A program made the translations under genes and the position numbers. From assembly GCF_000429945.1 (NCBI RefSeq), contig NZ_AUCV01000001.1:186001-250000 (forward strand): a stretch of DNA of 64,000 bases. The letters are read 5' to 3'. Below, piece after piece: positions 1,368 to 24,121 of this stretch (the stretch's first letter is position 1; the number at the start of each line of letters is the position of its first letter). The DNA comes from Desulfogranum japonicum DSM 18378 (GTDB lineage: Bacteria > Desulfobacterota > Desulfobulbia > Desulfobulbales > Desulfobulbaceae). The notes below the pieces were generated by a model. The model was not told where the DNA came from. It saw only the letters and a list, made by a program, of their open reading frames with translations, and did not search any database.

Positions 1368-2021
1368 ATGAATCAGTCTCCCCTCACTCAATTTGGAAAA
1401 AATTCTCAAGAACGCGTTTCCCGCGCACTGACTGTTTTGCAGGCAGGCGGTGGTGTTTTGCTGGTTGATGATGAAGACCGCGAAAATGAAGTGGATCTCA
1501 TTTATTCGACTGATCACCTCACTGTTCCACAGATGGCGTTTATGATTCGCCAATGTAGCGGCATAGTTTGTCTCTGCCTGACCGATGATGATATTGATCG
1601 GCTACAACTTCCGCCAATGGTGGACAACAATACAAGCCAGAATCAAACCGCCTTCACTATCTCCATTGAGGCTAAACAAGGCGTGACAACAGGGGTTTCC
1701 GCCTCCGACCGTTGGACCACTATTAAAACTGCGGTGAACCCTCAAGGTGTTCCGGAGGATCTCAGCCATCCAGGACATGTTTTTCCTTTAAAAGCTGATG
1801 TCAAAGGTGTGCTTGGACGAAGAGGACATACCGAAGGTACAATTGATCTCATGAAATTAGCAGGTCTCAATCCCTCAGGTATACTTTGTGAAGTGACAAG
1901 GGAGGACGGAACCATGGCACGTCTGGCAGATATGCCTGATTTTGCTAATCTCTATGAATTGCCTGTTCTAAGCATAGAGGATATTGTGAAGTACAGAACC
2001 TATGGAGCTGTTGAACAGTAA
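1368..2021 (+). CDS. ribB: 3,4-dihydroxy-2-butanone 4-phosphate synthase
   Basis: This enzyme converts ribulose 5-phosphate to 3,4-dihydroxy-2-butanone 4-phosphate plus formate, supplying the four-carbon unit of riboflavin. The 217-residue length equals that of stand-alone RibB of the E. coli type, with no C-terminal GTP cyclohydrolase II domain. Signature segments are the acidic [11 protein letters not shown] active-site loop (residues about 33-43), the [11 protein letters not shown] stretch, and SHPGHVFPL with the [13 protein letters not shown] helix. The ATG follows AAGGAG with good spacing. The gene is monocistronic: an FMN riboswitch lies upstream and a strong bidirectional terminator follows directly. 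It is therefore probably repressed when FMN is abundant. Nothing unusual was seen in the coding sequence. Confidence 0.97.
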
Positions 2022-2025
2022 GGGC

Positions 2026-2064
2026 TAAAAAACCTGGGAGCATATGATTGCTCCCAGGTTTTTA
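2026..2064 (+). terminator. Strong intrinsic terminator after ribB (probably bidirectional)
   Basis: Stem CCTGGGAGC / GCTCCCAGG with a 7-base loop is preceded by six A and followed by five T, starting 5 bases past the ribB stop. The symmetry would also let it stop transcripts coming from aspS on the minus strand. Confidence 0.9.
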
Positions 2065-2165
2065 GGGAGAAAGATACTGCTAATTGTGCATATGTGAAGC
2101 ACTCGTAACCGTTTCCCATTTTGGTGGCCTGTTATCAGACCTTGATGAACGGTTGCCTGGGTTGT

Positions 2166-3950
2166 TTATTTTTCTTTCCAGTCCGGTCTGAGGTGCAGTT
2201 CCGTTAATTGTTTCCTGGCAACCGAAGCGGGTGCTTCTGTAAGCGGACAGGTGGCTTTTTGGGTTTTGGGGAAAGCGATAACGTCGCGAATGGAACTGGA
2301 ACCTGTGAGAATCATGATAAGGCGATCCACACCAAAGGCGATTCCTCCATGTGGTGGTGCGCCGAATTTCAGTGCCTGCAGCAGGAATCCAAATTTTTCT
2401 TCTGCCTCTTCCTGATCGATACCCAAGGCTTTGAATACTTTTTCCTGTACTTCAGGATTGTGAATACGGATGGACCCACCACCGATTTCGTTGCCGTTCA
2501 GGACGAGGTCATAAGCGCGGCTTTTTACCTGTTCTGGAGCTGTTTCGAGCAAGTCAAGCTGATCCTCGTAGGGAGCAGTAAACGGGTGATGAACAGCGGT
2601 GTAGCGTTTGGCATCTTCATCATATTCAAACATGGGGAAGTCTGTAATCCAGAGGAAGTCATAGGTTCCTTCCTCAATCAGATTCAGCCTGCGGGCCAAT
2701 TCCAGGCGTAGTTCAGCCAGTACCTGGTGTACGGTTGAAGACTTGTCTGCGCCAAAGAGAATCAGGTCACCTGGCTGAGCGTCCAGAGCCTGCTGCATGG
2801 CCGCAATTTCCTGCTCACTGAAAAATTTGGTGATCGGTGATTGCCATTCCTCTTCTTTGATTTTAATCCAGGCCATTCCTCTGGCTCCAAAGCGACCGGC
2901 ATATTCGGTCAGGTCGTCCAGATCTTTTCTGGAAAAGCCTGCACACCCCTTGGCGTTTATGGCTTTTACCACTCCGCCACTTTCAAGAACAGTGTTGAAT
3001 ACCTTAAAACCACAGCCTTTCAGGACGTCGCTCAGGTCTATCAGTTCCAGGCCGAAACGGGTATCAGGGCGATCCGTACCGAACCTGCGCATGGCTTCAT
3101 CGTAGGTCATCCGCGCAAATGGTGCTGAGAGTGTCAGGTCGATGGTTTCCTTGAAAAGGGCCGATATCATGCCTTCAACCAAATGTATGATATCGTCTTC
3201 TCCCATGAAGCTCAGCTCCATATCAATTTGGGTGAATTCTGGCTGGCGATCGGCTCGCAGGTCTTCGTCCCGGAAACACTTTACGATCTGGTAATATCGG
3301 TCCATCCCGGACATCATCAGAATCTGTTTAAAGAGCTGTGGAGATTGTGGAAGCGCATAAAATTTACCTGCATTAACCCGACTGGGTACCAGATAGTCGC
3401 GCGCACCTTCAGGTGTAGATCTGGTAAGCATAGGCGTTTCGATTTCCAGGAATTGGCTGGCGTTCAAGTATGAACGAACAGCTTGCAATGCCTGGTGACG
3501 CATGACAAGGTTGTTGGCAACCTCTGGCCTGCGTAGATCCAGATAACGATATTGCAGGCGAAGTGAATCTGATACATCGCACTCTTCGTCAATGGGAAAA
3601 GGCGGTGTCTCGCTGGTATTGAGAATGCGAAGTTCATCCACCAGAATTTCAATGGTGCCGGTTTTGAGCTTAGGGTTTTCCATCTCGCCAGGGCGTTTTT
3701 CCACTTTGCCTTTAATCGCCAGAACCCATTCGCTGCGCAATTGGTGTGCTTTGGTGTGCACATCAGGATTAACTTCAGGATTGAATACCACCTGGGTTAT
3801 ACCCCAGCGGTCCCGTAGGTCTATGAATATGACACCGCCATGATCTCTGCGGCGCAATACCCAACCCATTAGGGTGACTTCCTGGCCGAGTGCGGTCTCA
3901 TTGAGTTCGTTACAGTTATGCGTGCGTCGAAGCACTCCCATTGATTCCAT
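2166..3950 (-). CDS. aspS: Aspartyl-tRNA synthetase
   Basis: This class II synthetase charges tRNA-Asp (and possibly tRNA-Asn). From the ATG at 3950 it is 594 residues, close to the bacterial norm of about 590. The order is an N-terminal OB-fold anticodon-binding domain (GWVLRRRDHGGVIFIDLRDR), the class II core with QSPQLFKQ and FRDEDLRADRQPEF (motif 2), an inserted GAD-type domain, and motif 3 (GIAFGVDRLIM) near the C terminus. An in-frame GTG lies four codons upstream (3962). GGAG (complement of 3956-3959) sits seven bases before the ATG at 3950, which is why the shorter start is preferred. Upstream on the same strand lie a terminator-like hairpin and, beyond a MITE-like repeat, hisS. The presence of the GAD insertion marks it as the bacterial-type enzyme. 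Confidence 0.97.
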   Translation of the reverse strand: MESMGVLRRTHNCNELNETALGQEVTLMGWVLRRRDHGGVIFIDLRDRWGITQVVFNPEVNPDVHTKAHQLRSEWVLAIKGKVEKRPGEMENPKLKTGTIEILVDELRILNTSETPPFPIDEECDVSDSLRLQYRYLDLRRPEVANNLVMRHQALQAVRSYLNASQFLEIETPMLTRSTPEGARDYLVPSRVNAGKFYALPQSPQLFKQILMMSGMDRYYQIVKCFRDEDLRADRQPEFTQIDMELSFMGEDDIIHLVEGMISALFKETIDLTLSAPFARMTYDEAMRRFGTDRPDTRFGLELIDLSDVLKGCGFKVFNTVLESGGVVKAINAKGCAGFSRKDLDDLTEYAGRFGARGMAWIKIKEEEWQSPITKFFSEQEIAAMQQALDAQPGDLILFGADKSSTVHQVLAELRLELARRLNLIEEGTYDFLWITDFPMFEYDEDAKRYTAVHHPFTAPYEDQLDLLETAPEQVKSRAYDLVLNGNEIGGGSIRIHNPEVQEKVFKALGIDQEEAEEKFGFLLQALKFGAPPHGGIAFGVDRLIMILTGSSSIRDVIAFPKTQKATCPLTEAPASVARKQLTELHLRPDWKEK

Positions 3951-13780: not shown

Positions 13781-16054
13781 TCAGTTATAACGGAATGTCA
13801 CAGCATTATTTCTGCGACCGACACGAACCGTACCCCCATTTTTCAATTCTCCAAAAAGGATTTCTTCGGTAAGTACATCTCCTATCTCCTTCATGATCAG
13901 GCGGCGTAGTGGGCGGGCTCCATAGGCAGGTTGGTATCCTTCCTTTGCCAGCCAGGATTTTGCCGCTGGGGTGAGAGATATTTTAATTTCCTTTTCTTTC
14001 AGCTGATCCTGAAGCTCCGCTACCATTTTCACAACGATTTTCTCAACAGTTTGCATGCCAAGCGCAGAAAAACTGATGATGGCATCCAGGCGGTTTCTGA
14101 ATTCAGGCGTGAAAAGGTTTTTAATTGCTTTCTGCTCTTTACCTTCTGAGTTCCCGGTGAATCCAATGGACCGCTCACTGACTTCCCGTGCCCCGGCATT
14201 GGTCGTCATGATAAGAATCACGTTACGGAAATCCGCTCGTCGCCCTGAGTTATCGGTCAGTGTGGAATGATCCATAACCTGGAGAAGAATGGAAAACACA
14301 TCGGGATGTGCTTTTTCGATCTCGTCAAGCAATAAAACCGAGTAAGGGTGCTTGCGAATGGCATCTGTGAGCAGACCGCCCTGATCAAAACCAACATAGC
14401 CGGGAGGTGCGCCAATTAGGCGGGCCACAGCATGCTTCTCCATGTACTCGCTCATGTCGAAACGTTCAAAATGGATGGATAATGCTGAGGCCAACTGTCT
14501 GGCAACCTCAGTTTTACCAACCCCTGTGGGGCCGGCAAAGAGGAACGATCCGGTTGGCGACTGCGGATTTCCCAAGCCTGCACGGGAGCGTTTCACTGCT
14601 TTCACGACAGCATCAATGGCTTCGTTCTGTCCAAAGATAAATTTTTTCAGGTTACCTTCCAGTGTAGCCAGGTCTTTGGTGTCATCGTTGGTTTTACTTG
14701 TAACCGGTACACGGGCCATTTTGGAAACAATCTGTTCCACATCGGTAACCTGTACTGTTTCTCCGATTTTTCCCTGCAGTCTGAAAGCCGCACCCACTTC
14801 GTCCATCACATCAATGGCCTTGTCAGGCAGAAAACGATCGTTTATGTAACGGTTGGCAAGCTCTGCTGTGGCAAAGACCGCATCGTCTGCATAGGTGATC
14901 TGGTGATGCTCTTCGTAACGGGACTGGAGTCCACGGAGGATAGCGCAGGTATCTTCAATGGATGGTTCTTCAATGTCAATCTTTTGAAACCTCCTGGAAA
15001 GAGCACGATCCTTTTCTATGTGGTTTTTGTATTCCTCATAAGTTGTGGAACCAATGCAGCGTATGGTTCCTGCCTGTAAAGCAGGTTTCAGTAAATTAGA
15101 GGCATCCATGGAGCCTCCACTTGTCGCCCCTGCACCAATGATGGTATGCATCTCATCTATAAAAAGGATTGCATTATCCTTTTCTTCAATGGCACCGACC
15201 ACTTCCTTCAGGCGTTTTTCAAAGTCTCCCCGATACTTGGTTCCTGCGACCAGGGTTCCAAGGTCCAGCATATAGATTTCGGTACCACTCAGCAGATCCG
15301 GTACGAGTTTGTCCGTATCAGGAACCGCATTTTGCCTGGCGAGACCATCTTCGTGTATGCGCAAAGCCAATCCTTCTGCCATGGCTGTTTTGCCAACTCC
15401 AGGTTCACCAACAAGAAGGGGATTATTTTTCTTTCTCCGGCAGAGAACCTGCATCATGCGACGCAACTCATGGTCCCTTCCTATGAGGGGATCAATGGTG
15501 CCCTCGGCTGCCCGTTTGGAAAAGTTTACGGTGAACTCTTCCAGAGGATCACCGGCTTTACCGGATGATGCACGCTTTTGATGGGCTGGGGATATGGGAC
15601 CCTGTTTATCCGTATCACTTTTCAGGTATTCGGGTAGCCCGTGGGAAATATATTCTACAACCTCAAGACGGCCAATGCCTTCTGAACCGAGAAAATAAAC
15701 GGCATGGGAGTCAGGTTCGGTGAGAATGGAAACCAGTACGTCCCCTGTATCCACCTGTTTTTTTCCGCAGCTTTGAACATGGCTGACAGCCCTCTGGAGA
15801 ACACGGTTGAAAGCAACTGTCTGGGCTGGTTCAGCTTCTACATTTTTGACAATGGGCATACCATTTTCAAAAAAACGTTCTAACCGTTGGAGAATGTTGG
15901 CGTTATTGCCACCGCATTTATCGATGATATGCCGGGCAAGATCATCATGTAGCAGTCCATAAAGCATATGCTCAACAGTGACGTACTCATGTTTGTGATT
16001 TTTCGCTTCTTTTATGGCCTTAATCAATGCCAGCTCTAATTCTTTACTCAGCAT
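13781..16054 (-). CDS. clpA: ATP-dependent Clp protease ATPase subunit ClpA
   Basis: This AAA+ unfoldase feeds substrates, including N-end-rule substrates delivered by ClpS, to ClpP. Its 757 residues match E. coli ClpA (758). The order is an N-terminal Clp-N double repeat, D1 with Walker A VGEPGVGKTAMAEGL and Walker B ILFIDEMHT, a short linker without the ClpB-type long coiled coil, and D2 with FAGPTGVGKTEVARQL, VLLLDEIEKAHPDV and the C-terminal ARPLRRLIMKEIGD helix. The ATG has AAGAGG upstream. clpS lies 170 bases upstream on the same strand, the standard clpS-clpA order. A strong terminator follows. Confidence 0.97.
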   Translation of the reverse strand: MLSKELELALIKAIKEAKNHKHEYVTVEHMLYGLLHDDLARHIIDKCGGNNANILQRLERFFENGMPIVKNVEAEPAQTVAFNRVLQRAVSHVQSCGKKQVDTGDVLVSILTEPDSHAVYFLGSEGIGRLEVVEYISHGLPEYLKSDTDKQGPISPAHQKRASSGKAGDPLEEFTVNFSKRAAEGTIDPLIGRDHELRRMMQVLCRRKKNNPLLVGEPGVGKTAMAEGLALRIHEDGLARQNAVPDTDKLVPDLLSGTEIYMLDLGTLVAGTKYRGDFEKRLKEVVGAIEEKDNAILFIDEMHTIIGAGATSGGSMDASNLLKPALQAGTIRCIGSTTYEEYKNHIEKDRALSRRFQKIDIEEPSIEDTCAILRGLQSRYEEHHQITYADDAVFATAELANRYINDRFLPDKAIDVMDEVGAAFRLQGKIGETVQVTDVEQIVSKMARVPVTSKTNDDTKDLATLEGNLKKFIFGQNEAIDAVVKAVKRSRAGLGNPQSPTGSFLFAGPTGVGKTEVARQLASALSIHFERFDMSEYMEKHAVARLIGAPPGYVGFDQGGLLTDAIRKHPYSVLLLDEIEKAHPDVFSILLQVMDHSTLTDNSGRRADFRNVILIMTTNAGAREVSERSIGFTGNSEGKEQKAIKNLFTPEFRNRLDAIISFSALGMQTVEKIVVKMVAELQDQLKEKEIKISLTPAAKSWLAKEGYQPAYGARPLRRLIMKEIGDVLTEEILFGELKNGGTVRVGRRNNAVTFRYN

Positions 16055-16223
16055 AATAACCTCTTAAAAAGAGTGTCTGCTCTTGGCAGCGTTCATGGCC
16101 GTCCATGATTCATACCCTGGCGGATTCATCACTGTTCAGCTGTTTTGGGTATTGCCTTAAGATTTTGCCTCTGTTTTCTTTCCAGTATGTTTACGGGATT
16201 GTTTGTTTTCCTGGCAGACACGA

Positions 16224-16598
16224 CTACCTGTCTTTTTCCAAAGAGCATTTTAAAGGGAATTCATTCATTTTGGCCAACCTGTGTACTTGTGCCACTTTGG
16301 TCTCGCCAATTTCACGGGTATACACTCCCGCTATCCCCTTACCTTGATTATGCACATCCAGCATAATTTTGGTAGCCTCATTTGAATCCTTGTTGAAAAT
16401 TGTTTCAAGGATCATGACTACAAAATCCATAGTGGTGTAGTCATCATTGTGAAGGACTACCTTGTAAAGGGGTGGTTCTTTCAGTTCCTCCTTATCTTTG
16501 ATGAGAACTTCACCTTGGAGGTTTGAGTGTTCCTTGCTCATTGTTGAACAGTCTTTTTTCTTCTTTTTTCTGTTTGGTTGTTTCGGGCAGTTACTCAC
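16224..16598 (-). CDS. clpS: ClpS adaptor for the ClpAP protease
   Basis: This small adaptor binds N-end-rule degrons and the ClpA N domain. Core motifs are PPLYKVVLHNDDYTTMDFVVMIL (residues about 42-64, the Asn-Asp substrate pocket) and the helix HNQGKGIAGVYTREIGETKV. The 124-residue length includes an N-terminal Lys-rich extension (NRKKKKKD), giving a protein slightly longer than E. coli ClpS (106). The start is GTG, with GGAG eight bases upstream. An internal ATG at residue 20 would give a conventional length but has no ribosome binding site. It lies directly upstream of clpA, so the two are probably cotranscribed. Confidence 0.95.
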   Translation of the reverse strand: MSNCPKQPNRKKKKKDCSTMSKEHSNLQGEVLIKDKEELKEPPLYKVVLHNDDYTTMDFVVMILETIFNKDSNEATKIMLDVHNQGKGIAGVYTREIGETKVAQVHRLAKMNEFPLKCSLEKDR

Positions 16599-16858
16599 GG
16601 CATTTCTCCGAGGACACAGCCCGTTTGATAGATGATATTTTTCATTTTACCTATGTTACTAGTATTGTAATGCTCGGTGACGAATTTTCAAGACTGCAAT
16701 GATACAGCACACGCAGGATGAATCCATTTGATTTCCAGCCGGAGAGAGTTTTTATTATGCAGCACCTCTGTTCCGGATTCATGTTATAACCTGGCGGACA
16801 TCTGGATGGATGTGTCGCATATGTATGAATTCTCATGGATTCAAGGTGGTGTGCATGG

Positions 16859-18226
16859 TTACTGCCTGGGCATACGCATCATTTCGATCAACAGATGCTG
16901 AAGCACGATTTCAGGGTTCAATGCTGAACTTTTTAAACGCATTTCAGCCTGCAGGATTTTTTCCATCCATTCTTTGAGAGCTGACAGGGAATAAGATGAT
17001 GCGGTTTTAAACTGCATATACAGGGCATAGGGATGACCGCTGAGTTCTTTTTTCCACGTTTCACGTTCTTTGAGCACCGGAAGACAGGTGTTTTGGAAGG
17101 CCTGCGCAGACATGCCGGTTGTAAATCCTGTTTCCGGTTGCAGCGAAAGAGCCCGGAACAAAAGGAGTGAACGCGCAAAATTGCGCAGTGAGGCAATAAT
17201 GGCAAGGGGATGGATGCCGTTTTCCTGTAAGCGTTCAGTCATAGTCAGCACCTGTTGAGTCTGACCCGTTGTCAGTGCTGTTGTCAATTCAAAAATGGCT
17301 TCCTGCCTGGTTCTTCCAACCATGGCATCCACATCCTGAAGAGTGATTCGTTGTGTTTCTCCGGTATAATCGACTAATTTTCGCAGTTCGTTGACCAGAG
17401 CAACAGGGTGGAAACCGACGCGTTCATATAACACTTCAACTGCTCTTGGTTCCAGGGCCTTGTCATACTGTGCCAGGGTGGTTTTCATCAGATCGGCCAG
17501 AACAGCCTTTTGTGTTTTCTGGGCCCGTGAGGATGCCCCGGTCTCAACGCTGAGGTCAATAATCGTATGGTTTTCCTTGAAATATTTATAGAGTTTTTTG
17601 CGTTTATCTATCTCCTCACTGATCAGAAAGAGAATATTGTTTTGAGGAAAACCCGCCTGTAAAGCATCCTGTACCTGTTGCTCAGGATTACCAGCTTCTC
17701 CGCCATGGGTTGAGGTACCATTACTCTGCATGTTTTTTATCAGGTCAGATGTCCAGCTGAGGTCATCATCTGGCTTGGTAAAACCAAAGTAGTGGCTCCA
17801 TTCCTTACTGCTTAAACCCGCCAATTCAGCCTCTTCATCTGCCAGGGCTATGCCACCGGCTTTGAGTAGAGACAACAGTGCCCTGGCTGCTCTGTCAGGT
17901 TTGTTTTCGCCATGGGCTTTTACTGCCCTTGTCCAGATACTTTTACTTGAATCTTTGGAGTGAAATACCCGGGTATCCATTACCCTGAAAATTTGACGCC
18001 CAGGAAGAAGACTGAAGCTTTTCACTTTATTCAAAGTTTTTTGGATATCTTCCTGCTCACCGTCAACTGGGTGCACTGTGCCTGAGGTGTTCAGCAGCAT
18101 GGTCTCCAATTTGGAAACTGTTTCCTGGCAGAGATAGCGCTCCCCAAAAACAAGGAAGGCCTGTTCGGATATTGTTTCCAAATTTTTGAAAAGCGTCGGT
18201 AGGTTTTCTCGGGTGTATACAGCCAT
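16859..18226 (-). CDS. holA: DNA polymerase III subunit delta
   Basis: Delta is the clamp-opening wrench of the clamp loader complex. Its 455 residues are longer than E. coli HolA (343). Family-like segments are FLVFGERYLCQETVSKLE near the N terminus, the LLPGRQIFRVMDTRVF strand, the ERVGFHPVALVNELRKLVDYTG helices, and ALTTGQTQQVLTMTERLQENGIHPLAIIASLRNFARSLL in the C-terminal collar. Extra length lies in the region of about residues 95-180. It starts 3 bases after the stop of the upstream exported protein, so the two are translationally coupled. This is an unusual partner, since HolA is more often next to lptE (an LPS-assembly lipoprotein) or rpsT. Confidence 0.88.
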   Translation of the reverse strand: MAVYTRENLPTLFKNLETISEQAFLVFGERYLCQETVSKLETMLLNTSGTVHPVDGEQEDIQKTLNKVKSFSLLPGRQIFRVMDTRVFHSKDSSKSIWTRAVKAHGENKPDRAARALLSLLKAGGIALADEEAELAGLSSKEWSHYFGFTKPDDDLSWTSDLIKNMQSNGTSTHGGEAGNPEQQVQDALQAGFPQNNILFLISEEIDKRKKLYKYFKENHTIIDLSVETGASSRAQKTQKAVLADLMKTTLAQYDKALEPRAVEVLYERVGFHPVALVNELRKLVDYTGETQRITLQDVDAMVGRTRQEAIFELTTALTTGQTQQVLTMTERLQENGIHPLAIIASLRNFARSLLLFRALSLQPETGFTTGMSAQAFQNTCLPVLKERETWKKELSGHPYALYMQFKTASSYSLSALKEWMEKILQAEMRLKSSALNPEIVLQHLLIEMMRMPRQ

Positions 18227-18229
18227 ATT

Positions 18230-20647
18230 TCAATTGTTTCCGTTCAAGGGTTCGCCCAAAAGCATTGTCTCTGGAGAAGCCCTGTTGTTGTCCGTATCCT
18301 TCTCTATAGCGAGGCGCTGTGGCGGGAATTGGATTTTATGCAGTATGGCAGGCAGTGAGCCGGGTTGCACATATATTTGTCTTTTTCTGTCTGGGAAGAT
18401 GTGCGCTGTTGCTTTTGCTATATCGTCCCAACCGGTTTCCTTAGTACTTGCAGCCACCAGTTCCGGAAAATATACCATAAAGGAATTATTAATCCGGGCC
18501 TGACCAGTTCCTGTGGTTGCCATAATCGATACATTTCCATTCAGGAGTTGCGTTACATCCGTGTACACTTTCATCCCGCCGCACGATCCCAACGTAACAA
18601 ATCGTTCTGCATTGGGCAATGTGATTGCATGTTCGGCAAGCTGTTCATGAATGGTTGTCAGTGGCCTGAGAAGCTGTTCTTCTCGCCAGTAACTGTGGCC
18701 GCGTTGCGCAATTATCTCCCCACCATTTTTCAGGAAATGGAGCAGTAGCTCTTTCTGGGACTTTTCTCCGGCATATACAGACAGCCTGTGAATAATATTT
18801 ACCTTGCTGACCTGTTTATGATACGAGATCATGGTTGCCTGATTTTGCAGCAGGGAAAAGACATCTTTATTTCCCGGGCCTGTATGCGGCTGTACGCTGT
18901 ATCCGTTCTGTTGGAGAAGATTGACAAAAGAGAGAAATGACTGTCTTCCATCAGCATCCGGATAAAACAACGAGAGTGCCTGCAGTTCATTGTCTGATTT
19001 CCAGCTGGAAAATGGCGTTCGTTGAAAACTATCCAGATTGATTGTTTCAAGATGTGGACCTAACGGTAAGAGAAGTGTGCGTCCCTTTGCTGTGAGCCAA
19101 TCGATGTGATGACTTTTGAGATAAGCAAGAATTATAGTGCAGTATGGTGCCGAAGCATTATCCAATTGGGCACACCGGACAAGTTGACTTATCAGGAAGG
19201 TCCTTGCTTCTGGGCCTGCAATTTCCATCAGCGAGGGGATGTTAACAGAAAAGCTGATAAGGTTGGCAACGTTTTCCAGGGCTGGGCGCATGATATGCTC
19301 AAACAATTCTTTCTGCTTGCTTGACTCTGTAGGGAAAAAATCACTGAGCGTACCTTTTTGAGCATTTGCTGTTATAAAATCCGAAAGGTACTGTTGAGAA
19401 GGGTCGAGTTGGGAAAAGGCCTGTAACACATCGCTGGCAAAGGACGTCTCAATGCGTTCTCGTAATATCGGGACCAGTATATCGCGGTATGATGAATCAT
19501 AGAGAATGTCACCCTGGGTCAATAACATATAGATTCGAGCTGTAGTAAGATTTTCCGCAAGCTGTTTCCTGGCTGTGGCAGTTGCTTCTATCAACAGGCG
19601 CGCCATGGAAGATCTGCTTCCAGATTTTTTTGCCTGTTCAAAGGGGTGCTGGTAGTGAAGTACTGTTTCACGGGGGAGCTGCAGGAATTGACTGCAGAGA
19701 TCTTCCAGACCGTGTTGCATAAGTGCCAAATATGAGAGTTCTTGACCAAAGCGGTTGGTGACGGTATGCAGGTTGTTGAGGGCCCGGGCCAGGTAGCGGT
19801 TTCCTTTGGCCATGGCAGCAAGCAGCAGTTTTTTTTCTTGATTGCTCAGGCTCAGGTATTTTTGCTCCCTGGCTTTCAGAGGCAGCATACAATAGTTGAA
19901 CAGCCAGTTCTCTGCCTCTGCAGGGTGCATGTCAGGGGACTGAAACAGCGCTTCTGCGAACCAGCAGATTTCCTGCGGCATGGCAGCTGTGGAGGTCAGC
20001 ATTCCATGTATTCTGTCACTGTTCATGTGCTTAATGGTTGCCAGAGCCGCAAAGGCCTGGGCCTGGCAAATGTTTAATTGTGATACCTGCGGGATTTTTT
20101 CAGCTACAAAGGCTGCCGTCATATCATGGACGGGAGGCATGGCTGCAAGTGCTATCAGGGCAGAGTCTGATAATGACTTGAGGTTTTCAATGAAATCCAG
20201 CGCTCTACCCGGTGTTATATCCGCCAGTGTGAGCAGAGCCTGAAAAACAGGTCCACTGTCAAGGGTGAGACCATGGATGGCACGCAGGCCTTTGATGGCC
20301 AGTTCCCATTCTTCCACCCCCAGGTCCATCCATTTTTCGAAACAGAGAACCTGCTCGTAGGTATAAGGAGTTGTGATCAGCAGGGACCAGGTTTCCTGGC
20401 ACTGACTGAAAGAAAGGGGCCTGATGTGACAAATTTTACGAAATACCCGTTGACTGTTGTAACTAAGCCCTTTCAGGATTTCTCTGCCATAAGCCTTTTG
20501 TTCACTGGTCAGGCAGTCGTTTTTCTGGTAAAGACGAGCGGTTTGCTCCCAACTGTTATTCGCCAGCTGGAGAGAGGCGGCGCAAGTGGAGCAGGGGAGG
20601 CATGCAACCAGAAAAATAAAGGTTGTCAGAAGTAGGCGACTCAGCAT
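18230..20647 (-). CDS. Exported protein of unknown function with a caspase-like His/Cys dyad
   Basis: This is an 805-residue protein not recognised as a whole. The N terminus is a signal sequence; LVAC at residues 13-16 fits a lipobox, so it may be an outer- or inner-membrane lipoprotein, though a cleavage after CAA is also possible. The central 500 residues are mostly helical with Leu-rich repeating segments, as in a helical-repeat scaffold. The C-terminal part (about 590-780) has alternating strand and helix pattern, with NGGEIIAQRGHSYW (His651) and RFVTLGSCGGMKV (Cys689), the spacing and hydrophobic-strand context of clan CD peptidases (caspase/CHAT-like). The Cys and His codons were checked in the DNA. 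It overlaps nothing but is separated by only 3 bases from holA. The divergent DMT gene starts within about 30 bases, so the promoters overlap. Confidence 0.75.
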   Translation of the reverse strand: MLSRLLLTTFIFLVACLPCSTCAASLQLANNSWEQTARLYQKNDCLTSEQKAYGREILKGLSYNSQRVFRKICHIRPLSFSQCQETWSLLITTPYTYEQVLCFEKWMDLGVEEWELAIKGLRAIHGLTLDSGPVFQALLTLADITPGRALDFIENLKSLSDSALIALAAMPPVHDMTAAFVAEKIPQVSQLNICQAQAFAALATIKHMNSDRIHGMLTSTAAMPQEICWFAEALFQSPDMHPAEAENWLFNYCMLPLKAREQKYLSLSNQEKKLLLAAMAKGNRYLARALNNLHTVTNRFGQELSYLALMQHGLEDLCSQFLQLPRETVLHYQHPFEQAKKSGSRSSMARLLIEATATARKQLAENLTTARIYMLLTQGDILYDSSYRDILVPILRERIETSFASDVLQAFSQLDPSQQYLSDFITANAQKGTLSDFFPTESSKQKELFEHIMRPALENVANLISFSVNIPSLMEIAGPEARTFLISQLVRCAQLDNASAPYCTIILAYLKSHHIDWLTAKGRTLLLPLGPHLETINLDSFQRTPFSSWKSDNELQALSLFYPDADGRQSFLSFVNLLQQNGYSVQPHTGPGNKDVFSLLQNQATMISYHKQVSKVNIIHRLSVYAGEKSQKELLLHFLKNGGEIIAQRGHSYWREEQLLRPLTTIHEQLAEHAITLPNAERFVTLGSCGGMKVYTDVTQLLNGNVSIMATTGTGQARINNSFMVYFPELVAASTKETGWDDIAKATAHIFPDRKRQIYVQPGSLPAILHKIQFPPQRLAIEKDTDNNRASPETMLLGEPLNGNN

Positions 20648-20677
20648 GATGTGATCAACTCAGGACAACGTGTAACT

Positions 20678-21616
20678 ATGCATATATCTTTCAGCAGGGG
20701 CGACTGGAGACCGTCGCAACGTTTTGTGCCAACCATGGCTATGTTGCTGGCAGTGACGTTGTGGGGCAGTTCATTTGTGGCCATGAAAATTGCATTTACA
20801 GAGCTTGATCCGTTTTTTGTTGTATTTGGACGGTTAACCATTGCATCTCTCTGTTTTCTTCCTTTTGTTCGTAGATACGGGGGAGCTGCTTTACAGCGGC
20901 GTCATATTTTGCCCCTGGTATGGATGGCACTTTGTGAGCCGTGCTTTTATTTTCTGTTTGAAACGTTTGCATTGCAGTATACCAGTGCCTCCCAAGCATC
21001 AATGATAACGACCATGCTGCCTCTTATGGTTGTGTTGACTGCTGCACTGGTGTTGAAGGAAAAACTTTCACGAAAAACAGTTGCAGGTTTTCTGGTCGCG
21101 GCGGCCGGAGCTCTCTGGCTTACCTTGGCAGGTGATTCTACAGAGCAGGCTCCCAAGCCTGTGCTTGGTAATTTTCTTGAGCTCATAGCCATGGCCTGTG
21201 CCACCGGGTATATCATACTCGCCAAGGTTTTGACCAGGGAACTCTCTCCCGTGATAGTCACCGCCGTACAATCCATCATCGGGGCATTGTTTTTTTTCCC
21301 CTTTCTTTTTCTTCCTCAAGTTGCATTACCCTTTGGTGCACCTGCGTCCGCTTTTGCTATTGTACTGTATCTCGGACTTTTTGTCAGCGTCGGAGCCTAT
21401 GGGTTGTATAATTATGGAGTGAGTCGTCTACCTGCAAGCCAGGCATCGGCCTTTATCAATCTGATTCCCGTTTTTTCCATAGCCCTGGGGTTCCTTTTGC
21501 TGGGAGAACGATTAAACTGCTGGCAGGTCATAGCATGTATCCTTGTCTTTTCAGGGGTGATCATCAGCCAAGACCGGAAATCATGCCATTTGGACAGTGA
21601 GGTGAAAAATGAATAA
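20678..21616 (+). CDS. DMT superfamily (EamA) transporter
   Basis: This 312-residue inner-membrane protein has ten hydrophobic segments in two EamA repeats. The first has LAVTLWGSSFVAMKIAF and QASMITTMLPLMVVLTA, the second VLYLGLFVSVGAYGLYNYGVSRLPASQASAFINLIPVFSIALGFLLLGERL. Family members export or import amino acids, nucleobases or other metabolites by proton exchange; the substrate cannot be predicted. Two starts are possible: ATG 20678 (chosen for the usual length) or GTG 20651. Neither has a strong ribosome binding site. It is divergent from the caspase-like gene. The last 8 bases overlap the DUF2905 gene. Confidence 0.88.
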   Translation: MHISFSRGDWRPSQRFVPTMAMLLAVTLWGSSFVAMKIAFTELDPFFVVFGRLTIASLCFLPFVRRYGGAALQRRHILPLVWMALCEPCFYFLFETFALQYTSASQASMITTMLPLMVVLTAALVLKEKLSRKTVAGFLVAAAGALWLTLAGDSTEQAPKPVLGNFLELIAMACATGYIILAKVLTRELSPVIVTAVQSIIGALFFFPFLFLPQVALPFGAPASAFAIVLYLGLFVSVGAYGLYNYGVSRLPASQASAFINLIPVFSIALGFLLLGERLNCWQVIACILVFSGVIISQDRKSCHLDSEVKNE

Positions 21617-22589: not shown

Positions 22590-23211
22590 TATTGTCTGGC
22601 AGGACCCTGAATTTGTGGTGGTGAATAAACCAGGGGGACTTCTTGCCGTACCTGGGAGAGGCGCTGATAAACAGGATTGCGTGACCAGACGTGTTCAGAA
22701 GCTATTTCCCCAATGTATTGAGCAACCAGCTGTGCATCGCCTTGATATGGCCACTTCCGGACTTATGGTAGTGGCTTTAACCAGACAGGCTCATAAGGAA
22801 TTGAACCGACAGTTTTCACAACGTATGGTGATCAAACGATATGTAGCACTGCTGGATGGAATATTGGCCAAGCCGGAAGGAACCATAACACTGGCATTCA
22901 GACTGGATCCTGAAAACAGGCCGTATCAGGTCTTTGATCCTGTGCAGGGGAAGACAGGCATTACACATTATAGGGTAATTGCGCAACAAAATGCTCAGAC
23001 CAGAGTGGAGTTCTTTCCTCAGACCGGGCGAACCCATCAGCTTCGCCTCCACAGCAGTCATGTTTTAGGGTTGGGGTGTCCCATTGTTGGTGATGCTTTA
23101 TACGGGACAGGGCGGAATGGAGATTCCATGCTTCTTCATGCCGCAGGGCTGCAGTTTTGCCATCCCTGCACCCAGGATACCTTGTGTTTTATTTCTTCTC
23201 CTGCTTTTTAG
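22582..23211 (+). CDS. RluA-type pseudouridine synthase catalytic protein
   Basis: This 209-residue catalytic core isomerises uridine to pseudouridine in RNA, rRNA or tRNA. It carries VVVNKPGGLLAVPG, the HRLDMATSGLMVVA motif with the catalytic Asp, the KRYVALLDG strand, and the C-terminal RTHQLRLHSSHVLGLGCPIVGDALYG block. The ATG at 22582 overlaps the end of the upstream partner gene by 8 bases; a longer frame starting at 22489 has no ribosome binding site and would lie within the partner. No ribosome binding site precedes 22582 either, so re-initiation after the upstream stop is likely. The C terminus overlaps the convergent LysM gene by 23 bases. Confidence 0.88.
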   Translation: MLDIVWQDPEFVVVNKPGGLLAVPGRGADKQDCVTRRVQKLFPQCIEQPAVHRLDMATSGLMVVALTRQAHKELNRQFSQRMVIKRYVALLDGILAKPEGTITLAFRLDPENRPYQVFDPVQGKTGITHYRVIAQQNAQTRVEFFPQTGRTHQLRLHSSHVLGLGCPIVGDALYGTGRNGDSMLLHAAGLQFCHPCTQDTLCFISSPAF

Positions 23212-24121
23212 CGGATTGTTTTCCTTTACATCTGTTTTTTATTGATATTTCAGAGCTTTCAAGGAGTATTTGCATCCCCGGAAAGATTTCGTTAGGGTTC
23301 CTGAGCTGATGTCGATTGAGCTTTACGAGATCTTCCACTGCCTGCTCATTGCAGAAGAGATCAATGGCAATGTGTGACAATGTATCGTTTTTCTTAACGA
23401 TATAAACCCTGGGCTCTTTGGGTTCTACGGCGGGTGAAGATGTTCTGGGTTCTGTATGATCCACAGGAACAGATTTGTCTGGCTGTTCATACTGGGCTTC
23501 GGGTTGGGGCTCTGTGCTGGCTTCTATCCTGGCAGGTTCAATGGGAGCAGGCTGCTGTTGCGACAGGGATGCTTCCTGTTGTCGGGGTGAAATAGGTTGT
23601 TCTATCTTTTGTTCCTGTTGAAATACAGAAGGAGCGGCTGAATCCATGTTGGCGGGATCGGAGCCTGCAGGCGGAGAAAGTTGTTTGATAATCAGCGGGC
23701 TGCTGATCCCAAGCAAAATAAGTATAACAAACACCCATCTTTTTCTTGGTGACGGGCTTTGTCTTCTGCCTGCAGCCATTCTTTCAGCATTGCGGCGTAT
23801 AGATCTGTTTTTTACCAGACCTGTCAGGGTAATGGCATCCTGCAATTCAGCAAGACGTCGGCGCATCCCCGGGTAGTCTGCCACTGACTTGGCAGCGGCG
23901 TAAACCAGCTCAATGGCATCCTGAAGATTACCACTGGCCTCCGCTGCAGCTGACTGCTCCATATATTGATCTGCCTTCTTTTTACGTGCCGTGATTTCGG
24001 CGGTAAATTGAGCGACTTCCTGGTTGCTTAATTCTTTTTTGTGAGCAGTCAGCAGTGTACCGGCTTCGATAATAAAGCCGTTGTCGATTTTTTCTCTGAT
24101 ATGTTGAGCATGATTACTCAC
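23189..24121 (-). CDS. LysM-domain protein with one membrane helix
   Basis: This 310-residue protein has a helical cytoplasmic N-terminal half (residues 1-125, TPR-like, with AELQDAITLTG), a single membrane segment RKRWVFVILILLGISSPLII (about 127-146), a Pro/Gln/Glu-rich low-complexity linker, and a C-terminal LysM domain (YIVKKNDTLSHIAIDLFCNEQAVEDLV...). LysM binds the N-acetylglucosamine backbone of peptidoglycan, so this probably anchors to the wall from the inner membrane. Start is GTG with AGGA upstream. It is separated from mdh by a terminator and about 330 bases. A role in cell-envelope tethering or spore/wall sensing is only inferred. Confidence 0.85.
   Translation of the reverse strand: MSNHAQHIREKIDNGFIIEAGTLLTAHKKELSNQEVAQFTAEITARKKKADQYMEQSAAAEASGNLQDAIELVYAAAKSVADYPGMRRRLAELQDAITLTGLVKNRSIRRNAERMAAGRRQSPSPRKRWVFVILILLGISSPLIIKQLSPPAGSDPANMDSAAPSVFQQEQKIEQPISPRQQEASLSQQQPAPIEPARIEASTEPQPEAQYEQPDKSVPVDHTEPRTSSPAVEPKEPRVYIVKKNDTLSHIAIDLFCNEQAVEDLVKLNRHQLRNPNEIFPGMQILLESSEISIKNRCKGKQSAKKQEKK

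Follow-up and report, generated by a model that had tools for sequence, protein, structure and literature searches.

What does a protein with an export-type N-terminus and a caspase-like His/Cys pair do beside holA, the gene for DNA polymerase III delta? The stretch analysed here (the window) is 64,000 nucleotides of Desulfogranum japonicum DSM 18378 and encodes on its minus strand, at 18230-20647, a protein of 805 aa that an earlier note, made from the sequence alone, had read as an exported caspase-like protein. Both motifs named in that note are present, with H651 within RGHSYW and C689 within LGSCGG, and the opposite (plus) strand is interrupted by many stop codons. The explanation that we consider best, and hold at even chances, makes the protein a cysteine peptidase that is exported, probably to the periplasm, and represents an unnamed family with a C-terminal caspase-like fold of the CHAT/separase kind. 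The peptidase activity of the family is less certain than the assignment of its fold. The features to which the text refers are as follows.

18230..20647, minus strand: whole gene of the predicted exported, caspase-like protein, 805 aa (open reading frame; match in 60 of 96 related genomes, its own included; model pLDDT 87.3, pTM 0.81)
20579..20647, minus strand: predicted N-terminal signal sequence, spanning roughly residues 1-23 (hydrophobic 11-mer; model helix 2-16)
19001..20566, minus strand: predicted all-helical scaffold, residues 28-549 (DSSP of the full-length model)
18320..19000, minus strand: predicted C-terminal alpha/beta (caspase-like) domain, residues 550-776 (domain and full-length models; VIA match to SAVED-CHAT over 548-776)
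18947..18958, minus strand: loop after the first strand with D564, D566 and G567 (invariant in 37/37), possibly lining an S1 pocket
18686..18703, minus strand: RGHSYW, residues 649-654, with the predicted catalytic H651 (all six residues invariant in 37/37)
18575..18592, minus strand: LGSCGG, residues 686-691, with the predicted nucleophile C689 (G687, C689 and G690 invariant in 37/37)
18488..18511, minus strand: loop after the next strand, residues 713-720, with invariant G713, G715 and N720 (37-sequence alignment)
16859..18226, minus strand: holA (DNA polymerase III delta), a neighbour outside the proposed function (TIGR01128, 142 bits against a cut-off of 80)

The ATG of holA lies 3 bases beyond the stop codon of the 805-aa gene and is followed by clpS and clpA, and an EamA transporter gene stands upstream in divergent orientation. 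The mechanical start codons of the 805-aa gene and the EamA gene are only 3 bases apart (20647-20651), so one of the two may begin later. A simple promoter scan of 16000-21000 returned 8 sites against a shuffled mean of 6.0. At 23189-24121 the window also encodes a LysM protein of 310 aa, a relative of which is found near the same locus in several other genomes.

The distribution of the protein was determined in genomes and in genome contigs. The protein search covered 96 genomes, that of the window and those of 95 relatives, and 60 of them gave a match: 53/59 in the window's own taxonomic family (f1), a count that takes in two short fragments (G001 and G013), 3/4 in f3, 4/4 in f12 and 0/29 in the order's remaining families. 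Across the phylum, 12 of 395 genomes matched the domain profile, and each of the 12 falls in f1, f3 or f12. Scanning genome contigs with the alignment confirmed 116 relatives, of which 80 were kept, and the single-protein scan of the same contigs returned no relative. The titles of the 80 name Desulfogranum, Desulfobulbus, Desulfocapsa, Desulfofustis, Desulfopila, Desulfoprunum, Electrothrix and Electronema, the rest being broadly labelled MAGs (Desulfobulbaceae, Desulfobacteraceae, Deltaproteobacteria, Proteobacteria and similar); Desulfobulbaceae and Desulfocapsaceae are families of Desulfobulbales. The protein belongs to a genuine family that is unnamed in the libraries searched and has so far been seen in a single order of sulfur-metabolising bacteria, Desulfobulbales, cable bacteria included. 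Pfam, NCBIfam, PADLOC and PDB profile searches gave no match to any clan CD family. phmmer against the PDB returned four weak matches (E 0.03 and above), to the helical proteins Nup62 and flagellar hook-associated protein 3, and single members of the alignment matched scattered Pfam families at E 0.005-0.25, none of them clan CD. No work joining caspase and Electrothrix was found, and this family is absent from the titles of the caspase/Desulfobulb papers listed and from the titles and abstract openings of the CHAT/separase papers listed. One assembly (G003) carries two different copies, which may reflect mixed strains or a paralogue: L203 3-473 (G003:C265) is 48% identical to the window's protein over residues 5-159 and has the window's gene order, and L019 (G003:C311) is 37% identical.

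Two sets of sequences were used for the comparisons. The first comprises one open reading frame of more than 500 aa from each of 38 of the 60 matching genomes, window included (30 loci from the whole-protein search and 8 fetched further); the second comprises the 80 relatives kept from the contig scan. A strongly hydrophobic 11-mer precedes the conserved T36 in 38/38 proteins of the first set, compared with 122 of 760 control stretches inside proteins, so that the signal sequence proposed earlier recurs as a hydrophobic N-terminus throughout. In the second set, taken here as 79 loci and the window with the incomplete L087 excluded, the same 11-mer is found in 80/80 against 239 of 1600 controls; both counts measure hydrophobicity on mechanical starts. 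The family thus appears to have an export-type N-terminus, and the probable destination is the periplasm or the cell surface. A lipoprotein reading was tried and dropped, as the lipobox-like LVAC at residues 13-16 of the window's copy recurs in few of the 40 sequences listed.

To characterize the fold, we modelled the C-terminal domain (266 residues, 44 sequences; pLDDT 84, pTM 0.81) and the full-length protein (AlphaFold2, 39 sequences; pLDDT 87.3, pTM 0.81). The full-length model contains a signal helix, an almost purely helical part (residues 28-549), which agrees with the N-terminal helical scaffold of the earlier reading, and an alpha/beta domain. According to DSSP of the full model, the strands of the domain are 554-561, 584-586, 606-613, 616-624, 645-648, 682-686 and 706-711, most of them separated by helices. 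Around the dyad the order is strand 645-648, H651, helix 652-672, strand 682-686, C689 and helix 691-701, the same strand-His-helix-strand-Cys order that had been read from the sequence. The His and then the Cys stand just after consecutive strands in both models, the sheet adjacency of these strands being presumed. In PMC4357240 the clan CD sheet runs 2-1-3-4-5-6, with the dyad at the ends of its strands 3 and 4. The core strands 2-1-3-4 of the clan are all parallel, in a sheet that has six strands or more, one of them antiparallel. The strand order of the family, deduced through VIA alignments to Ras-like chains and SAVED-CHAT, would fit such a caspase core if 616-624 is strand 2 and 584-613 is an insertion. 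Of an antiparallel final strand, the full model has nothing beyond a two-residue bridge at 759-760.

Structure comparisons gave divided results. With the full model, VIA, which covered 999 of Foldseek's top 1000 chains, ranked the SAVED-CHAT protease 8tl0_C first (Z 9.6, rmsd 3.7, 166 residues aligned over 548-776, 12% identity), followed by GTPases at Z 8.2 and below. By VIA's own guidance a Z under 8 may mean merely a common arrangement, and the SAVED-CHAT match is therefore suggestive, a common arrangement being another possible reading of it. With the domain alone, VIA placed a dynein-dynactin chain and GTPases first (Z 8.5 and below); SAVED-CHAT is not among the best 50 matches listed for the domain, which is no argument against the likeness. 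For the domain, Foldseek's top-ranked chain comes from a tubulin-cofactor complex (E 6.6e-5, TMq 0.34) and is followed by MglA and further small GTPases; for the full model its ranking, with a best E of 0.013, is led by small GTPases and other Rossmann-type proteins. The caspase fold claimed in the earlier note is thus supported by the order of elements and by the VIA match, but it heads no Foldseek ranking and finds no sequence match. Because Foldseek favours small GTPases and there is no sequence signal to clan CD, we grade the clan CD, caspase-type assignment of the modelled domain, by judgement, as likely. A small-GTPase reading was rejected: the window's protein lacks GxxxxGK[ST], and [GA]x4GK[ST] occurs in 3 of 81 sequences, where it falls at the domain's final strand instead of following the first one.

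CHAT proteins combine an N-terminal helical or sensory part with a C-terminal protease. The family resembles CHAT (PF12770; SAVED-CHAT 8tl0, TPR-CHAT/Csx29) in its predicted fold and in having the His and then the Cys after consecutive strands. However, it differs in its export-type N-terminus and, on our reading of the model, in having one more helix and one more strand ahead of the His strand, and it has no CRISPR gene among its neighbours as annotated. PF12770 was absent from 44 domain sequences at E up to 10, a range in which the filters drop most matches above 0.1, and from 39 full-length sequences at 0.1. The active-site motifs also differ. Eleven CHAT segments (of 23 matches) share invariant H130, H134 and C180 with the consensus HxAxHG and SAC, whereas the family has R-G-H-S and mostly G-S-C-G in place of H-x3-H-G and SAC and does not follow the CHAT pattern. 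Profile-profile comparison by hhalign with 21 of the 23 CHAT segments and 6 of 16 C25 segments gave probabilities below 2%, in a rough test that includes several segments without the motifs.

Separase (C50) consists of a large all-helical N-terminal part and a C-terminal caspase-like domain, and the family may resemble it, a helical part preceding an alpha/beta domain in the model; separase, however, is intracellular and eukaryotic. The CHAT profile built here also picks up separases in the PDB (E 0.03-0.05), and the PDB profile searches gave no match of the family to separase. Gingipain (C25) and clostripain (C11) are exported bacterial clan CD peptidases, and we know of no helical scaffold of such size in them. 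A His/Cys dyad on a caspase-like core is described for both in PMC4357240. The family has no Pfam match to Peptidase C25 (PF01364), and hhalign with the six C25 segments gave 0.2%. The window's own genome separately encodes a gingipain-type Peptidase_C25 protein (L170, G000:C34:31451-32737; E 8.2e-53).

Conservation was measured in the first set. One sequence (L023) ends before the region and was dropped; with the window's own, 37 distinct sequences were left. All 37 keep both H651 and C689, in a set found by a whole-protein query in which the motif was unused. Neither outcome that would have spoken against the earlier note appeared: the dyad is not lost in homologues, and the modelled domain has its strands and helices in the sequence expected. 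C689 is the sole invariant Cys among the 14 of the window's protein, and among its 23 His, H294 and H651 alone are invariant. As both residues of the dyad are kept in every sequence that covers the region, the pattern is more than chance. One of the two patterns used in the contig scan was QRGHSYWR, so the conservation of the His in those 80 relatives is not independent, and the counts given here rest on the first set. Invariant positions are concentrated in the eight residues after five core strands (14/40, compared with 17/184 in the rest of 550-773; Fisher p 1.2e-4), and the residues before the same strands contain 4/40 (p 0.007 against those after); the five strands were picked by us, with 584-586 and 606-613 left out. 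The invariant residues thus cluster at what is presumed, from the models, to be the active-site edge of the domain.

The window's copy is the most divergent member of the family in the sets compared. It has the longest end branch of the tree (1.3, against 0.5 for its nearest relative, L053), and it departs at 14 positions at which the 36 others agree, D565A, M645I, S685T and N724M among them, with 6 departures in the next sequence; in the second set the numbers are 13 and 2. In G001, a small genome whose clpA and holA are 83% and 53% identical to the window's, only residues 1-71 are recognisable (L204 4261-4473, G001:C53), in a stretch that contains a stop codon, lies about 200 bases before holA and stands beside holA-clpS-clpA and EamA. 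This remnant, together with the fast change of the window's copy, suggests that the gene is dispensable in the genus. The window's copy itself seems to evolve fast yet keep the dyad. The possibility of a degenerate protease, raised earlier, is not supported for the family, in which the dyad is invariant; what is left of it is the divergence of this one copy.

We next consider the gene's surroundings in relatives. holA is directly downstream in 71 of 78 judgeable loci, mostly followed by clpS and clpA, two of the 80 loci (L085 and L127) ending too early for holA to be judged. The seven loci without it belong to Electrothrix, to Electronema or to MAGs placed with these two on the tree, and the three f3 loci fetched (L035-L037) also lack a holA neighbour. 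Electrothrix, Electronema and f3 are each set apart by a branch of the protein tree with support 100, and two changes between the holA and the other contexts suffice, as counted on a quick tree with long branches and an unknown root. The coupling to holA in the earlier note is thus common as a position, but it does not extend to cable bacteria and f3, which have the gene elsewhere.

Away from holA, the gene adjoins cell-wall genes in three lineages, links that were noticed after the fact and without a base rate. In Electronema aureum (L109) mreB, mreC, an open reading frame at the mreD position, PBP2 and rodA (Pfam) precede it on the same strand; L101 and L092 have the same rod gene order by eye, and MreC matches on the same contigs agree. 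The gap from rodA to the gene is 13 bases in L109, 25 in L101 and 61 in L092. PF04093 (MreD) has no match in the window's genome, and the open reading frames at the mreD position are without a Pfam match and are therefore named by position only. In f3 a convergent YkuD gene is present in 3/3 loci, with an SLT gene one gene further in L036, and in Electrothrix a convergent GH3 gene is present in L045 (Pfam) and in L049 and L088 (by eye); GH3 is not adjacent to the gene in L090, L093 and L098. Since the YkuD and GH3 genes are convergent, their linkage is weak. Loss of the gene was not significantly associated with loss of MreC, which is missing in 2/6 f1 genomes without the gene compared with 4/53 with it (Fisher p 0.11).

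These data bear on three other explanations. The gene might work with holA or the ClpSA protease in a functional operon, as its usual position suggests. We consider this very improbable and reject the functional link, because the export-type N-terminus puts the product across the membrane and at least ten loci, seven of the cable-bacterium type and three of f3, carry the gene elsewhere; furthermore, holA-clpS-clpA persists where the gene is a stub. A pseudo-enzyme, in which the fold serves for binding and the His and Cys have a structural role, would agree with the 14 departures and long branch of the window's copy and with the stub in its close relative. It would leave unexplained the dyad that even this divergent copy keeps, as well as the conserved loops after several strands; a conserved disulfide does not account for C689, the sole invariant Cys, and we regard a pseudo-enzyme as improbable.

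An exported Rossmann-type thiol enzyme outside clan CD (acyl hydrolase, amidase or transferase), in which the His and Cys arose separately and the substrate is not a protein but, for example, a peptidoglycan or lipid precursor, is somewhat unlikely. In its favour, Ras-like and other Rossmann folds do nearly as well as clan CD, or better, in the Foldseek and VIA comparisons, no sequence link joins the family to clan CD, and the cell-wall neighbours in three lineages suit such a substrate. Classic Rossmann-type Cys hydrolases, however, carry the His after the Cys, which counts against this explanation, and VIA ranks a CHAT protease first for the full model. According to PMC4357240, a clan CD dyad has its His first and its Cys second, each at the end of one of two consecutive strands, an arrangement that the models share.

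If the protein is the exported cysteine peptidase that we prefer, its active site would lie at the C-terminal edge of the central sheet, where H651 would act after export as the general base and C689 would be the nucleophile. Asp564 and Asp566, both invariant and both in the loop that follows the first strand, may form part of the S1 pocket, which would then prefer a basic residue. In TPR-CHAT and separase the helical parts control the protease, and the helical scaffold here could likewise bind a partner or substrate and control the domain. The substrate would most likely be a cell-envelope protein, perhaps one of wall synthesis, because the gene adjoins cell-wall genes in the three lineages away from holA. 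A cell-wall role of the family is a lead. Its most specific form is a long shot: an exported CHAT/separase-like protease, regulated by the helical arm to which it is fused, that acts on wall elongation in Desulfobulbales by trimming or switching parts of its machinery, cable bacteria included. If that were true, caspase-type proteolysis would serve periplasmic morphogenesis and not defence or cell death, and in Electronema it would do so from within the rod operon.

The combination of a predicted caspase-like domain, a large helical arm and an export-type N-terminus occurs in 53/59 sampled genomes of one taxonomic family, is retained in cable bacteria and corresponds to no family in Pfam, NCBIfam or PADLOC. 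If active, the protein would represent CHAT/separase-type proteolysis outside the cytoplasm and outside defence, and it would open a way into the biology of the cable-bacterium envelope. The family would also widen the range of sequences known for clan CD-like folds past what current profiles cover. Two further genes were seen near it in these organisms. An outer-membrane (OMP) beta-barrel gene lies upstream of the gene in L045 (3877-4776, Pfam) and, by eye, in L049, L088, L090, L093 and L098. In L090, a MAG of the cable-bacterium type, the open reading frame at 1836-3461, about 2.4 kb upstream of the gene, begins by eye like what we take to be a metacaspase/C14 domain.
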